Source: Streptomyces flavofungini (lineage in GTDB: Bacteria > Actinomycetota > Actinomycetes > Streptomycetales > Streptomycetaceae). Taken from it: a stretch of 64,000 nucleotides of DNA. Below are positions 531 through 4,567 of this stretch, piece by piece. Every line of letters begins with the position of its first letter. Position 1 is the stretch's first letter. Location of the stretch: positions 7,281,001-7,345,000 of the forward strand of contig NZ_CP128846.1 in the NCBI RefSeq assembly GCF_030388665.1, given 5' to 3'. The position numbers were made by a program, and so were the translations under genes. The notes under the pieces were generated by a model. That model was not told the origin of the DNA. It saw only the letters and a list, made by a program, of their open reading frames with translations, and did no database searches.

Positions 531-1181
531 GGGCGCACCACCCTCTGCCTCGCGTACGAGCCGCGCTGCCTCACCTGCGGGACGACGCTCCGCCACCCGC
601 GCCGGACCCCGGCCACTTCATCCTGGTACGCCCCCCACCACCCGGCGCCGGACAGAGGTCCGAACGGGCTACGCCCCCCTGCCCCGCCGTGTCGCGCCCA
701 CCTCCGGACCCCTGCCGCCGAGCGCCGCGGTTACGCTCTGCGCCTGATCCGTGGCCAGGGGTACCGCTGCCGCTGCCGGAGGAGCGAGGGGCGCCATGAC
801 CACAGGTCCCGCCACCGCAGGTCCTACGGCGACAGGGCCTACGGCGACAGGGCCTACGGCGACAGGGCCCGTGACCGCGGCCCCACGACCACCGTGCCGA
901 CCGGACCGCCCGCCCCGACCGTTCCGCAAAGCCGTACCGAGGCACTGAAGCCGACCACAACGCCCCACCCGGCAGCCCGGCACTACGCCGAAGACCACCC
1001 GGAGACCCGCCCGGCAGGATCCCCGCGCCTCACCGGCCCGGCCCCCCGTCGCGGCGGCACGCTCCTGGTCGCCCAGCCCTGCCGCGACCGCGCGACGGCG
1101 TGGACCGCGCAGCTGGTCGCCGTGGACGGCTCCGGCCGGGCCGCCGGGGGCCGCGCCGGAAAAGCGGTTGCGGCGCCCCGT
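531..1181. other. Intergenic region, about 650 bp, no convincing gene
   Basis: Between the metallopeptidase start and the ABC-F leader I see no reading frame with typical Streptomyces codon pattern. The long frames here are Arg/Pro/Ala-rich low-complexity shadows. One short frame, ATG at 796 to 948 (50 residues), has a GGAGG/GAGGGG site just upstream and is built on the 15-bp tandem repeat at 823-867. It could be a tiny Thr/Gly/Pro-rich peptide, but nothing else supports it. The right end leads into the promoter of the ABC-F leader. Confidence 0.5.
823..867 (+). repeat. Tandem repeat, 3 x 15 bp
   Basis: Three perfect head-to-tail copies of CCTACGGCGACAGGG. The period is a multiple of three, so any frame through it encodes a repeating pentapeptide (GPTAT on the plus strand from ATG 796). 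Flanking sequence contains degenerate versions (GTCCCGCCACCGCAG). It resembles the other 15-bp array in this window at 12513-12572 in period but not in sequence. Confidence 0.9.
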
Positions 1182-1282
1182 TAGAATTGGCCCATGGCCA
1201 TTCTCCTGCTGCATTAGACGGCTGAGCGGCGCGCTCCGCGCGACAACGCATCGTGCATCGTCCTTGCCTTCCTCCAGCCGTC
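1182..1282 (+). promoter_or_regulatory. Leaderless promoter and attenuator-like leader of the ABC-F gene
   Basis: A strong -10 hexamer TAGAAT lies at 1182-1187, six bases before the ATG of a seven-codon frame (1194-1217), so transcription likely starts at that ATG. The last base of its TAG stop begins an 8-bp arm GACGGCTG (1217-1224) that is perfectly complementary to CAGCCGTC (1275-1282). Inside lies a GCGCG-CTC-CGCGC hairpin (1229-1241). The AGGAG of the ABC-F gene (1297-1301) follows 14 bases after the right arm. A ribosome paused at the end of the leader would cover the left arm and change the fold, which is the layout of ribosome-mediated attenuation. No obvious -35 is visible. The regulatory role is inferred. 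Confidence 0.6.
1194..1217 (+). CDS. Seven-residue leader peptide (MAILLLH)
   Basis: ATG GCC ATT CTC CTG CTG CAT TAG, a minimal frame that would start at the 5' end of its own mRNA given the TAGAAT box six bases upstream. Leaderless leader peptides upstream of antibiotic-resistance ABC-F genes are a recognised theme: drug-stalled ribosomes on the leader relieve attenuation. Here the stop codon is built into the left arm of a downstream stem. The hydrophobic Ile-Leu-Leu-Leu-His run could be the stalling sequence, but that is speculation. It is too short to judge from codon use, so the evidence is position and architecture only. Confidence 0.5.
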   Translation: MAILLLH

Positions 1283-1309
1283 CATATCCCCTGTCCAGGA
1301 GTCTGACCC

Positions 1310-2908
1310 GTGATCACCGCCTCCGGTATCGAGCTGCGTGCCGGCGCCCGCATCCTCATCGAGAACGCCTCGTTCCGCATCGCCAAGGGCGACCGCGTCG
1401 GCCTCGTCGGCCGCAACGGCGCGGGCAAGACGACGCTCACGAAGTGCCTGGCCGGTGAGGGCACGCCGGCGGGCGGCACGATCAGCCGCTCCGGAGAGGT
1501 CGGCTATCTCCCGCAGGACCCGCGCACGGGCGACCTCGACGTCCTCGCCCGCGACCGCGTCCTGTCCGCGCGCGGCCTCGACGTCCTCATCCGCAAGATG
1601 CGCGAGAACGAACAGCGCATCGCGAACGGCTCGGGCGCCACCCGCGAGAAGGCCCTCAAGCAGTACGAGCGCCAGGAGACGGAGTTCCTCACCAAGGGCG
1701 GGTACGCCGCCGAGGCCGAGGCCGCCACCATCGCCGCCGCCCTGAACCTCCCGGACCGCGTGCTCGGCCAGCCCCTGCACACGCTCTCCGGCGGTCAGCG
1801 CCGCCGCATCGAGCTGGCCCGCATCCTCTTCTCGGACGCCGACACGCTGCTCCTCGACGAGCCGACGAACCACCTCGACGCCGACTCCATCGTCTGGCTG
1901 CGCGACTACCTGAAGACGTACCGCGGCGGCTTCATCGTGATCTCCCACGACGTCGACCTCGTCGAGACGGTCGTCAACAAGGTCTTCTACCTGGACGCCA
2001 ACCGCGCCGCCATCGACGTCTACAACATGGGCTGGAAGCTCTACCAGCAGCAGCGCGAGTCGGACGAGAAGCGCCGCAAGCGCGAGCGTCAGAACGCCGA
2101 GAAGAAGGCCGCGGCCCTGCACTCGCAGGCCGACAAGATGCGCGCCAAGGCCACCAAGACCGTCGCCGCGCAGAACATGGCCCGTCGCGCCGACAAGCTC
2201 CTCGCGGGTCTCGAAGAGGTGCGCCAGAGCGACAAGGTCGCCAAGCTGCGCTTCCCCGAGCCCTCGCCCTGCGGCAAGACGCCCCTGACCGCCGAGGGCC
2301 TGTCCAAGTCGTACGGCTCCCTCGAGATCTTCACCGATGTGGACCTGGCCATCGACAAGGGTTCGCGCGTCGTCATCCTCGGCCTCAACGGCGCGGGCAA
2401 GACGACCCTCCTGCGGCTGCTCGGCGGCGTCGAGAAACCCGACACCGGCCAGGTCGTCGAGGGTCACGGCCTCAAGCTCGGGTACTACGCCCAGGAGCAC
2501 GAGACCCTCGACCCCGAGCGCACGGTCCTGGAGAACATGCGCTCCGCGGCGCCCGACCTCGACCTGGTCGAGGTGCGCAAGACGCTCGGCTCCTTCCTGT
2601 TCTCCGGAGACGACGTCGACAAGCCCGCGGGCGTGCTCTCCGGCGGTGAGAAGACCCGGCTCGCGCTCGCGACCCTCGTCGTCTCCTCCGCGAACGTGCT
2701 CCTGCTCGACGAGCCCACGAACAACCTCGACCCGGCGAGCCGCGAGGAGATCCTGGGCGCCCTGCGCACCTACAAGGGCGCCGTCGTCCTTGTCACGCAC
2801 GACGAGGGCGCCGTCGAGGCACTGCAGCCGGAGCGGATCATTCTGCTCCCGGACGGCGTCGAGGACCTGTGGGGCGCGGACTACGCCGACCTGGTGGCTC
2901 TCGCCTGA
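1310..2908 (+). CDS. ABC-F family ATPase (ribosome-associated)
   Basis: A 532-residue soluble twin ABC ATPase without membrane segments, typical of ABC-F proteins that act on ribosomes (antibiotic protection or translation rescue). Domain 1 has Walker A GRNGAGKTT (about 34-42), signature LSGGQ (about 159-163) and Walker B LLLDEPTNHLD (about 180-190). A charged Lys/Arg-rich interdomain linker lies around 240-310 (ESDEKRRKRERQNAEKKAA). Domain 2 has GLNGAGKTT, LSGGEKTR and LLLDEPTNNLD. The GTG start is chosen because AGGAG lies at 1297-1301, eight bases upstream. The leader at 1194-1282 suggests induction by translation inhibitors. No transporter partner lies nearby. The exact drug or stress is not readable from sequence. 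Confidence 0.93.
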   Translation: MITASGIELRAGARILIENASFRIAKGDRVGLVGRNGAGKTTLTKCLAGEGTPAGGTISRSGEVGYLPQDPRTGDLDVLARDRVLSARGLDVLIRKMRENEQRIANGSGATREKALKQYERQETEFLTKGGYAAEAEAATIAAALNLPDRVLGQPLHTLSGGQRRRIELARILFSDADTLLLDEPTNHLDADSIVWLRDYLKTYRGGFIVISHDVDLVETVVNKVFYLDANRAAIDVYNMGWKLYQQQRESDEKRRKRERQNAEKKAAALHSQADKMRAKATKTVAAQNMARRADKLLAGLEEVRQSDKVAKLRFPEPSPCGKTPLTAEGLSKSYGSLEIFTDVDLAIDKGSRVVILGLNGAGKTTLLRLLGGVEKPDTGQVVEGHGLKLGYYAQEHETLDPERTVLENMRSAAPDLDLVEVRKTLGSFLFSGDDVDKPAGVLSGGEKTRLALATLVVSSANVLLLDEPTNNLDPASREEILGALRTYKGAVVLVTHDEGAVEALQPERIILLPDGVEDLWGADYADLVALA

Positions 2909-3034: not shown

Positions 3035-3321
3035 CTTCATCTGTGTGAGGCGTCCTCGTACCGAGGTGTGGCATACACGGATTTCTCCGTCCCATGGGAC
3101 CCGCAGGCCCGCCTTTCCTCGGCACGGCGCTGACCTGCCACTTCCTTGCAGAACCCATTCGGCGGTACGTCCCGCGACGTGCGGAATCGTTAATTCCGCT
3201 CGTGATGGCCGCTTGACTCCCGGCGAATCAAGTCGCATGGACCTTGCCGAATGGGTGGCCAGGAGGCTCGGAAGGGGTGATCATGAGAAGTCCAGAGCGC
3301 ACTTCCCATGAGGAGGCACGG

Positions 3322-3543
3322 GTGGCCGAGACTCTGAAGAAGGGCAGCCGGGTTACCGGCGCCGCGCGCGACAAGCTCGCGGCAGACCTGAAGAAGAAGT
3401 ACGACGGTGGTGCGAGCATCCGGGCGTTGGCCGAGGAGACCGGCCGTAGCTACGGGTTCGTCCACCGGATGCTCAGTGAGTCCGGAGTCACGCTGCGGGG
3501 ACGCGGCGGGGCAACGCGAGGCAAGAAGGCCGCTTCCAGCTAG
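3322..3543 (+). CDS. gbn: GATC-binding nucleoid-associated protein Gbn
   Basis: A 73-residue basic protein with a single helix-turn-helix (ASIRALAEETGRSYGFVHRM, about 29-48) and a basic Arg/Gly/Lys tail. Size, sequence and neighbourhood fit Gbn (SCO1839 in S. coelicolor), a small actinobacterial nucleoid protein reported to bind GATC followed by (A/T)T and to influence chromosome compaction, sporulation and antibiotic output. I chose GTG at 3322 because AGGAGG sits at 3311-3316, five bases upstream, and it gives the published length. An in-frame ATG at 3283 with GGAAGGGG upstream is an alternative start. The gene is monocistronic, ending in a strong hairpin. GATC sites flank it on both sides. 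Confidence 0.85.
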   Translation: MAETLKKGSRVTGAARDKLAADLKKKYDGGASIRALAEETGRSYGFVHRMLSESGVTLRGRGGATRGKKAASS

Positions 3544-3730: not shown

Positions 3731-4567
3731 ATGGCTTCGCCCGACAGCGATTCGCCCGAGAGCGGTCCGAGCGTCCCGAGCACGACGGCGCCGGTCCTCG
3801 ACCGGGACGGCGTACGCCTCACGGTCGACGAGGCCGTCGCCACGGTGACGCTGACCAACGCGGCCAAGCGCAACGCCCAATCTCCCGCGCTGTGGCGGGC
3901 GTTGACCGAGGCCGGCCGGGTGCTGCCCGGCAGCGTCCGCGTGGTGCTGCTGCGCGGAGAGGGCAAGTCCTTCTCCGCGGGCCTCGACCGGCAGGCGTTC
4001 ACGCCCGAGGGCTTCGACGGCGAACCGTCCTTCATCGACCTGGCACGCGGCGCGGACGACGAACTCGACGCGACCATCGCCGAGTACCAGGACGCCTTCA
4101 CCTGGTGGCGGCGCGGCGACCTCGTGTCCATCGCCGCCGTCCAGGGGCATGCGATCGGTGCCGGGTTCCAGCTCGCCCTCGCCTGCGACCTTCGGGTCGC
4201 CGCCGACGACGCGCAGTTCGCCATGCGCGAGACCAGCCTCGGTCTGGTGCCCGACCTCACCGGCACCCACCCGCTGGTCTCCCTCGTCGGGTACGCCCGC
4301 GCCCTGGAGATCTGCGCCACGGGCCGCTTCGTCCATGCCGTCGAGGCCGAGCGCATCGGCCTCGCCAACCTCGTCGTGCCCGGCGACCAACTCGACGCCG
4401 CCGCACGGGACTTGGCCGCCGCGCTGCTCGCCGCGCCGCGCGACGCGGTCATCGAGACCAAGGCGCTCCTTCAGGGCGCCGTCGGACGCTCGTACGAGGA
4501 ACAGCGCCAAGCCGAACGGGCCGCGCAGGCACGCAGGCTGCGGGACCTGGCGGGCATCGGGGATTAG
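3731..4567 (+). CDS. Enoyl-CoA hydratase/isomerase family protein
   Basis: A 278-residue crotonase-fold protein. The first oxyanion-hole segment is GEGKSFSAGLD (about 77-87) and the second is AVQGHAIGAGFQLALACDLR (about 137-156), both in the expected places. The residue where hydratases carry a catalytic Glu reads MRETSLGLVPD, which retains a Glu, so activity on an acyl-CoA is plausible. It would act in the cytoplasm in fatty-acid or branched acid breakdown. The first 25 residues are a Ser/Pro-rich extension not needed for the fold. GGAGG at 3721-3725 sets the ATG start. The gene stands alone between gbn and a convergent gene; its specific substrate cannot be told. Confidence 0.85.
   Translation: MASPDSDSPESGPSVPSTTAPVLDRDGVRLTVDEAVATVTLTNAAKRNAQSPALWRALTEAGRVLPGSVRVVLLRGEGKSFSAGLDRQAFTPEGFDGEPSFIDLARGADDELDATIAEYQDAFTWWRRGDLVSIAAVQGHAIGAGFQLALACDLRVAADDAQFAMRETSLGLVPDLTGTHPLVSLVGYARALEICATGRFVHAVEAERIGLANLVVPGDQLDAAARDLAAALLAAPRDAVIETKALLQGAVGRSYEEQRQAERAAQARRLRDLAGIGD

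Follow-up and report, generated by a model that had tools for sequence, protein, structure and literature searches.

A conserved, putatively leaderless mini-ORF whose codons can pair with the start region of the core ABC-F gene of Streptomyces

Near the beginning of a stretch of 64,000 nucleotides (nt) from Streptomyces flavofungini (contig NZ_CP128846.1, positions 7,281,001 to 7,345,000; the whole stretch is called the window here) lies a gene for an ABC-F protein, and 116 nt upstream of it starts a short open reading frame (ORF), MAILLLH-TAG, which is predicted to be leaderless. An earlier sequence-only reading of this DNA had taken the ORF, together with a stem that includes its stop codon, for a leader of the attenuator type before an ABC-F gene, pointing to ABC-F resistance genes that are induced through drug-stalled ribosomes on such leaders, and the positions it gave for TAGAAT, the peptide, both stem arms, the 14-base gap and the ABC-F ribosome site proved exact to the base on rereading (Table 1). 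The leader ORF has no Shine-Dalgarno sequence of its own, for which there is no room because the -10 element stands only 6–7 nt before the ATG. This distance agrees with the published norm for S. lividans, which is 5–7 nt between the -10 element and the transcription start point, and transcription would probably begin at 1194, the first base of the leader's start codon.

Table 1. Features of the leader and the ABC-F start region, in window positions
Feature	Position	Strand	Remark
Upstream promoter block: GGAAAA 1158-1163, TTGC 1168-1171	1158-1173	+	conserved in Streptomyces
-10 element TAGAAT of predicted leaderless promoter	1182-1187	+	read from sequence; TANNNT conserved
Leader ORF MAILLLH-TAG, predicted leaderless	1194-1217	+	ATG 1194-1196, six bases after TAGAAT
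Candidate anti-start element AUGG (leader start codon)	1194-1197	+	partner: ABC-F start region
Candidate anti-Shine-Dalgarno CTCCTG, leader codons 4-5	1203-1208	+	partner: CAGGAG 1296-1301
Inner stem, 5' arm GACGGCTG	1217-1224	+	first G shared with last base of TAG
Inner stem, 3' arm CAGCCGTC	1275-1282	+	8-base complement of 1217-1224
ABC-F Shine-Dalgarno AGGAG	1297-1301	+	14 bases (1283-1296) after inner stem
Core actinobacterial ABC-F gene, GTG start, 532 amino acids	1310-2908	+	

The leader in the window is established because of a cross-species comparison, its own fold alone being insufficient. The comparison covered 162 Streptomycetaceae loci (L001–L155 and L171–L177, with some species present twice), in which the 300 nt upstream of the ABC-F gene were scanned; 148 of the loci are distinct from the leader ATG to the gene, and among these are 54 distinct leader ORFs. 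In all 162 loci, exactly one TANNNT hexamer followed after 6 or 7 nt by an ATG, a short frame and a stop codon precedes the ABC-F gene, whereas ten rounds of dinucleotide shuffling gave a mean of 0.5 and a maximum of 2 of the 162 loci, against a real count of 161 within the 200-nt limit of that test. The conserved ATG-to-stop frame that the sequence-only reading had suggested looking for in orthologues is therefore present throughout. A degenerate leader pattern matched 16 of 61 genomes, once in each, and the reversed control pattern matched none of the 61; the position of the ABC-F gene was listed for 10 of the 16, and the match lay just upstream of it in all 10. The pattern misses the leader of the window itself because it fixes 7 nt between the -10 element and the ATG.

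Most distinct leaders have 8 codons including the stop (136 of 148), and 9, 11 and 10 codons occur in 6, 5 and 1, respectively. All of these length variants are in frame, 147 of the leaders end with TAG and one with TAA, and the spacer from the stop to the ABC-F start ranges from 14 to 164 nt. Codon 2 encodes Ala in 133 of the 136 eight-codon leaders (142 of 148 overall), and all four Ala codons are in use (third base C in 97, A in 27, T in 8 and G in 1). Codon 3 is free, encoding twelve different residues, and most peptides conform to MAxLL[AV]H, with no run of codons for a regulated amino acid. The loci closest by ABC-F identity (L001 and L082–L085; 97%) encode MAAPLLSWTA, and their stop lies within the stem. 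MAILLLH itself is this species' version of the peptide. Decoding seems to be what constrains Met, Ala2 and the stop, and Leu-Leu at codons 4 and 5 looks like a constraint of the RNA (CUCC), dictated by pairing; the preference for Ala as second codon may have general causes too.

GGAG or AGGAG is found in all 148 distinct upstream sequences, the GGAG starting 10–16 nt before the gene (11 nt in 122 of 148). The Shine-Dalgarno sequence is predicted to be base-paired with the leader ORF with a mean probability of 0.78 (median 0.95; 148 sequences), compared with 0.05 for shuffled upstream sequences, and in the window this probability is 0.999. Most of 43 minimum-energy folds pair CUCC of codons 4–5 with GGAG and nest the stem of the sequence-only reading inside, and in many of the 43 a further helix joins the leader AUGG to CCGU where the ABC-F gene begins (in the window, G1196-G1197 with C1307-C1308); a few loci, such as L070, L073 and L172, adopt other minimum-energy folds. 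In three Kitasatospora loci with an ATG-start gene (L075, L079 and L080), AUGGCUG of the leader pairs with CAGCCAU, and L082 keeps a GCUCCU-AGGAGU pairing despite its MAAPLLSWTA leader.

The start helix (leader bases 1–4 against -2 to +2 of the gene) consists of 98.1% standard pairs over 92 distinct sequences, compared with 24–75% when the register is slid by 1–3 bases, and all four of its pairs are present in 87 of the 92. CTCC occurs in 47 of the 54 distinct ORFs, whereas base-shuffled ORFs contain it in 10.9 cases and codon-shuffled ones in 19.4. Where GGAG stands at -11 (68 of the 92 sequences), the third base of codon 2 and the base at -4 form C-G in 42, A-U in 12 and G-U in 1, and are unpaired in 13. 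The inner stem region folds somewhat better than its shuffles (mean z -1.23; 147 sequences). The stem proposed by the sequence-only reading, an 8-base-pair complement that takes in the last base of the stop codon, is borne out to this extent, but the outer pairing with the Shine-Dalgarno sequence and the start codon had been overlooked.

A ribosome with codon 3 in its P site would cover about nt 1–22 of such a leader. We computed the cost of opening the ribosome-binding site (RBS; -13 to +6, in sequences that extend 12 nt into the gene) for 147 leaders, one leader with a 14-nt spacer being omitted. The mean cost was 10.3 kcal/mol in the free RNA and 5.7, 5.8 and 6.6 kcal/mol with the first 15, 22 and 36 nt masked, respectively; with shuffled upstream parts, it was 7.7 kcal/mol unmasked and 7.6 kcal/mol with 22 nt masked. 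Masking of 22 nt gained at least 3 kcal/mol in 120 of the 147 leaders, compared with 5 of 147 after shuffling. The corresponding costs in the window were 11.5 kcal/mol with nothing masked and 4.5, 4.4 and 7.5 kcal/mol with 15, 22 and 36 nt masked. When the first 22 nt of the window's leader are taken away, the inner stem persists and the centroid structure leaves the RBS unpaired, the minimum-energy fold retaining three weak RBS pairs.

A second instance of the layout is provided by a paralogue in the same genome (L308/L324, contig 1 near 4892230; 61% identity to the core ABC-F protein); among 199 genomes of the genus, 33 have it at E <= 1e-240. In all 30 loci fetched (L308/L324 and L325–L353), a leader MSTPR[IV]S-TAG stands at TANNNT-N6/7; it is unrelated to the core leader and has the same layout, with predicted Shine-Dalgarno pairing around an inner stem in 30 of 30 and a mean opening gain of 7.1 kcal/mol, a figure without shuffle control. 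In an alignment of the 30 sequences, a 9-pair helix is 96.7% paired (shuffles 91.3%, none of 500 as high; slid registers 22–46%). Codon 5 uses three synonymous Arg codons, whose third base and the base before CGGAG form A-U in 17, G-C in 5 and C-G in 4 sequences (other in 4), i.e. the pairing base stands opposite in 26 of 30; the next pair is A-U in 21, G-C in 6, G-U in 2 and other in 1. Cells changed on both sides number 15, compared with 4.3 after shuffling, and the covariation score is 0.188, compared with 0.103; neither value was reached in 500 shuffles, a type of test that kinship among the paralogue sequences can inflate. Two further counts were not above shuffles: 2 pairs with a change on both sides (reached by 434 of 500) and 6 further pair types (reached by 495 of 500). 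Five other ABC-F genes of this genome were scanned roughly, upstream of the match starts. A leader-like ORF, MAFLFFV, lies upstream of the match L311 (contig 1 near 302916), and no leader-like ORF was found in the other four stretches scanned, among them that of L310, whose match begins at residue 154, so that its true upstream lies outside the scan.

These data bear on the view that the ATG-to-stop frame is accidental and that conservation concerns nothing but an element of the DNA or RNA. Conservation at the DNA level is indeed long and includes the promoter, and RNA pairing alone accounts for both CTCC and AUGG. Against this, the leaders vary in length only in frame and almost always end in TAG, four different Ala codons are used at codon 2 though their middle C is partnerless in the start helix, and the paralogue leader varies codon 5 synonymously while keeping the opposite base paired. 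We regard an accidental frame as very improbable.

Mini-ORFs of this kind also occur beyond the Streptomycetaceae, though the evidence for pairing is weaker there. Among 145 loci from other families of the order and class (L276, which came without upstream sequence, is counted as a miss), 48 have a TANNNT-N6/7-[AG]TG short ORF of 2–15 codons upstream of the ABC-F gene, compared with a mean of 0.9 and a maximum of 3 after shuffling. Wrong offsets gave 0 (2–5 nt), 7 (8–9 nt), 13 (10–11 nt), 4 (12–13 nt) and 5 (14–15 nt). The 48 loci span eleven tool-labelled families, and the peptides are family-specific: M[RHS][TA]PD, MMPVAD, VPSVRTP, MRGCEP/VLRCEP, VDMIRLE and MRTPPI. RBS pairing is clear in L167, L198 and L232 as single cases and in many leaders of the M..PD type, partial in the MMPVAD group and absent in others, and for 19 of the 48 no more than 1 of 20 shuffles does as well. 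The leaders' own duplexes with the RBS average -15.2 kcal/mol in these families, compared with -11.5 kcal/mol for swapped ones; 14 of 40 rank in the top 5% when set against base-shuffled leaders, and 8 of 40 do so against codon-shuffled ones. An Ala, Ser or Thr in the penultimate position of all families' leaders was considered and dropped by eye, as VLRCEP and VDMIRLE lack them. By eye, Asp, Glu or Pro is frequent at the C-terminal end before the stop (f21 L183–L253, f19 L202–L267 and others), which could reflect slow termination or be a mere by-product of pairing. In family f3 (L158–L165) and several others, the ABC-F gene itself starts 5–8 nt after a TANNNT hexamer. Under a looser rule, the 145 loci divide into 53 with a leader, 19 with only the main gene placed as leaderless and 73 with neither, and in f3 and the other loci of the second group the ABC-F mRNA may itself be leaderless and lack a leader ORF.

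We consider it likely that the mini-ORF is a leaderless translational attenuator that carries an antisense element within its own codons and is opened by ribosomes dwelling on it. The computed support consists of the conserved frame, the pairing with its compensatory changes and the predicted change in opening energy; from these we infer the transcription start, translation of the leader, the direction of regulation and a stalling signal. The attenuator role put forward by the sequence-only reading is retained in this model through the conserved frame, but the stem it stressed is only the inner one, and the likely switch is the pairing of the leader with the ABC-F start region. The mRNA would begin at the A of the leader ATG and hence with the seven-codon ORF. 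CUCC would pair with the Shine-Dalgarno sequence and AUGG with the ABC-F start, held together by the GC stem between them, so that the free RNA would be closed and the ABC-F start hidden. A ribosome on codons 1–3 would cover the antisense strand (the first 15–22 nt) and make the ABC-F start freer. Fast, normal passage over seven codons would yield little ABC-F protein, and slow passage or stalling, caused by a drug or another problem of early elongation, would yield more, which could then act on the stalled ribosomes.

Several results weigh against this model. The CTCC/GGAG pairing score of 98.6% holds by construction and is uninformative because the register was set on those very words. The fold of the window is only modestly better than its shuffles (z -1.9, and -1.3 with a longer 3' end). 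RNAalifold gave an empty consensus on the gappy alignment of 130 leaders, because the spacers vary in length and sequence, and was replaced by folding of each sequence with shuffles, by slid registers and by a tool-based count on the paralogue. Of 138 Streptomycetaceae, only 65 have a leader/RBS duplex that is better than those of 95% of the leaders after base shuffling, and own duplexes in this family average -14.75 kcal/mol compared with -13.74 kcal/mol for swapped ones, a small difference that is expected because most Streptomycetaceae share the same elements. Masking of 36 nt, as by a ribosome at the stop codon, partly recloses the RBS. In folds that take in 30 nt of the gene, masking of 18–24 nt raises the mean probability that the Shine-Dalgarno sequence is unpaired from 0.05 to only 0.24, close to the 0.18–0.21 reached by shuffles; the masked state is therefore not fully open. 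Outside the Streptomycetaceae, a gain of at least 3 kcal/mol is seen in only 14 of the 48 leaders (shuffles 8%), and in family f21 the gain stays below 1 kcal/mol for 13 of 14 leaders. In addition, in S. lincolnensis all but one ABC-F protein were present in all samples, and clindamycin raised only ARE5 and one AAF4 besides LmrC, according to published proteomics (PMC8546547).

The last observation, in which most ABC-F proteins are seen without drug, would also fit a constitutive structure or plain coupling, whereby the mini-ORF sets a low basal ABC-F level and leaderless initiation on it uncovers the gene to a degree that follows the supply of ribosomes, with neither stalling nor drug sensing. 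That the ABC-F gene is a core gene and that codon 3 of its leader is not conserved favor this explanation as well. We consider it unlikely, as the fixed short ORF, the in-frame length changes, the conserved Ala2 and the conserved paralogue peptide (MSTPR[IV]S in 30 of 30) point to a use of the leader in decoding. Transcriptional attenuation, in which a ribosome on the leader would keep transcription from ending (intrinsically or through Rho) at the inner GC stem or at the C-rich untranslated stretch behind it, seems less probable still. In its favor, many attenuators of ABC-F genes act on transcription, among them those reported for lmrC and are5sc of Streptomyces; the inner stem also keeps its position among the sequences, and by eye the part that follows it is rich in C. 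However, a search of 900–1500 for terminator-like sites with a T run came up empty (Rho sites were not searched), and a terminator would have no need for the conserved pairing of the Shine-Dalgarno sequence and the start codon.

As to what could stall ribosomes on the leader in the attenuator model, the conserved Ala2 and the gene order described below may point to phenicols or oxazolidinones. These drugs arrest ribosomes best with a penultimate Ala, less with Ser or Thr (PMC8987054), and with Ala2 they would therefore do so with codon 3 in the P site, over the nt whose masking is predicted to open the gene. Induction by lincosamides was also considered and rejected; it has no support, and the S. 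lincolnensis clindamycin proteomics are partly negative (PMC8546547).

The ABC-F protein scores 392 bits with the NCBIfam model NF000355 ('ribosomal protection-like ABC-F'; cut-off 380) and, among the 25 models shown, reaches the cut-off of no ARE subfamily; it also passes the ATPase model TIGR01189 (ccmA), which we take as a cross-match. Of the solved structures, PoxtA and YbiT are its two best matches by sequence. Genome searches at E <= 1e-150 gave matches in 294 of 295 for the genus, 147 of 147 for the order and 284 of 296 for the class, the sets drawn overlapping one another. The gene is thus a core actinobacterial gene and not an accessory one, which corrects the interpretation given by the sequence-only reading. 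Downstream of it lie a gene for a small helix-turn-helix (HTH)-like protein (window 3283-3543; the label was assigned from sequence, with no family search behind it) and an enoyl-CoA hydratase gene (3731-4567). Relatives of the two are found in 164 and 162, respectively, of 203 loci longer than 3 kb, a set that includes a few loci of other ABC-F genes. In three of the six f6 loci (L303, L306 and L307), a hydratase-like gene precedes and an HTH-like gene follows the ABC-F gene, an order that fits echA12-Rv1473-Rv1473A of Mycobacterium tuberculosis. In view of this gene order (3 of 6 f6 loci), the ABC-F protein of the window is possibly orthologous to OcrA (Rv1473), a mycobacterial ABC-F protein linked to oxazolidinone and phenicol tolerance (PMC9159947). 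OcrA differs in being regulated by WhiB7, according to a title cited in the same paper, whereas the Streptomyces gene has its leader; none of the six f6 loci (L302–L307) showed a leaderless leader.

A wider reading would combine four propositions: that a leaderless ORF of 5–8 codons serving both as sensor and as antisense of the next RBS is a general actinobacterial device; that the Met-Ala leader of Streptomyces is tuned to phenicol or oxazolidinone arrest, which leaves the inner stem intact; that the ABC-F protein is the OcrA orthologue and counters those drugs; and that mycobacteria may have swapped the leader for WhiB7 control. Taken jointly, the four are a speculative possibility that we rate as rather doubtful.

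Leaderless polycysteine upstream ORFs (uORFs) of mycobacteria reportedly act as attenuators with a cysteine signal and Cys-rich peptides (Canestrari et al. 2020). They are cited as a case of translation attenuation in M. smegmatis (PMC13236596) and resemble the present leader as leaderless short ORFs that attenuate the genes following them. The ABC-F leader differs in having no amino-acid run and in preceding a core gene; in addition, it is predicted to be antisense to the RBS from the first base of its ORF. Very short uORFs also precede known ABC-F resistance genes, namely cplR, vmlR, lsaA, vgaL and msrD and, in Streptomyces, lmrC, tiaA and are5sc (PMC10201436, PMC8546547, PMC12421871). In these, stalling relieves repression, and cplR likewise has an anti-Shine-Dalgarno element. 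Their peptides (MLV, MRS, MVGDDDISG and MR[I/M]) are different, however, and the uORFs of tiaA and are5sc have their own RBS, come with predicted terminators, belong to 5' untranslated regions that measure 194 and 232 nt, and precede resistance genes (PMC12421871). Leaderless short leader ORFs are known from the same genus for amino acids (leuL1, leuL2, ilvL, trpL1, trpL2, thrL and metL; PMC8079986), but these contain codons for the regulated amino acid and precede amino-acid or tRNA-ligase genes, and no ABC-F leader is among the eight that this paper lists. Searches of the open-access literature, with subscription papers and supplements outside their scope, yielded no recognised description of this leader. 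Within that scope, what appears to be new is the combination of a leaderless leader with an ABC-F uORF attenuator, each part being already known.

If the attenuator model is true, a switch of the drug-responsive type would sit on a core ABC-F gene that nearly all actinobacteria tested possess, antibiotic producers included, and would explain how a housekeeping ribosome factor can be dosed to ribosome trouble. It would also supply a recipe for finding more, i.e. a leaderless mini-ORF complementary to the next RBS. Such mini-ORFs lack the Shine-Dalgarno sequence that uORF searches (e.g. uORF4u) look for. No other such mini-ORF was found in the window under a rule that asks for an ATG, 3–15 codons and, as the following frame, one of 100 codons or more that has a Shine-Dalgarno sequence, and Rfam gave no match at gathering score anywhere in it.

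A promoter block AAAA-N4-TTGC-...-CCCCGT (window 1158-1181) is kept across Streptomyces. Counted from the first base of the -10 element, A is found at each position of AAAA (-22 to -19) in 125–142 of the 148 distinct Streptomycetaceae sequences, and the bases of TTGC (-14 to -11) are found in 134–145. A promoter of the SigR type, GGAAT-N18-GTT, was considered as the main reading and rejected, TAGA[CA]T being near-invariant and GTT and the second G of GGAA variable. The block resembles the published WblC box, whose strict form is present in 28 of 148; it stands 8 bp from the -10 element, whereas the published spacing for WblC boxes is 16–19 bp. Control of the core copy by WblC is conceivable, a box-like block being present, though at a deviating spacing. 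Upstream of the paralogue, a loose WblC-type box lies 17–18 bp from the -10 element in 6 of 30 sequences and the strict form in 0 of 30. Further upstream of the promoter, the GC-rich stretch at about 820-870 of the window contains short direct repeats of 'cctacggcgacaggg'.

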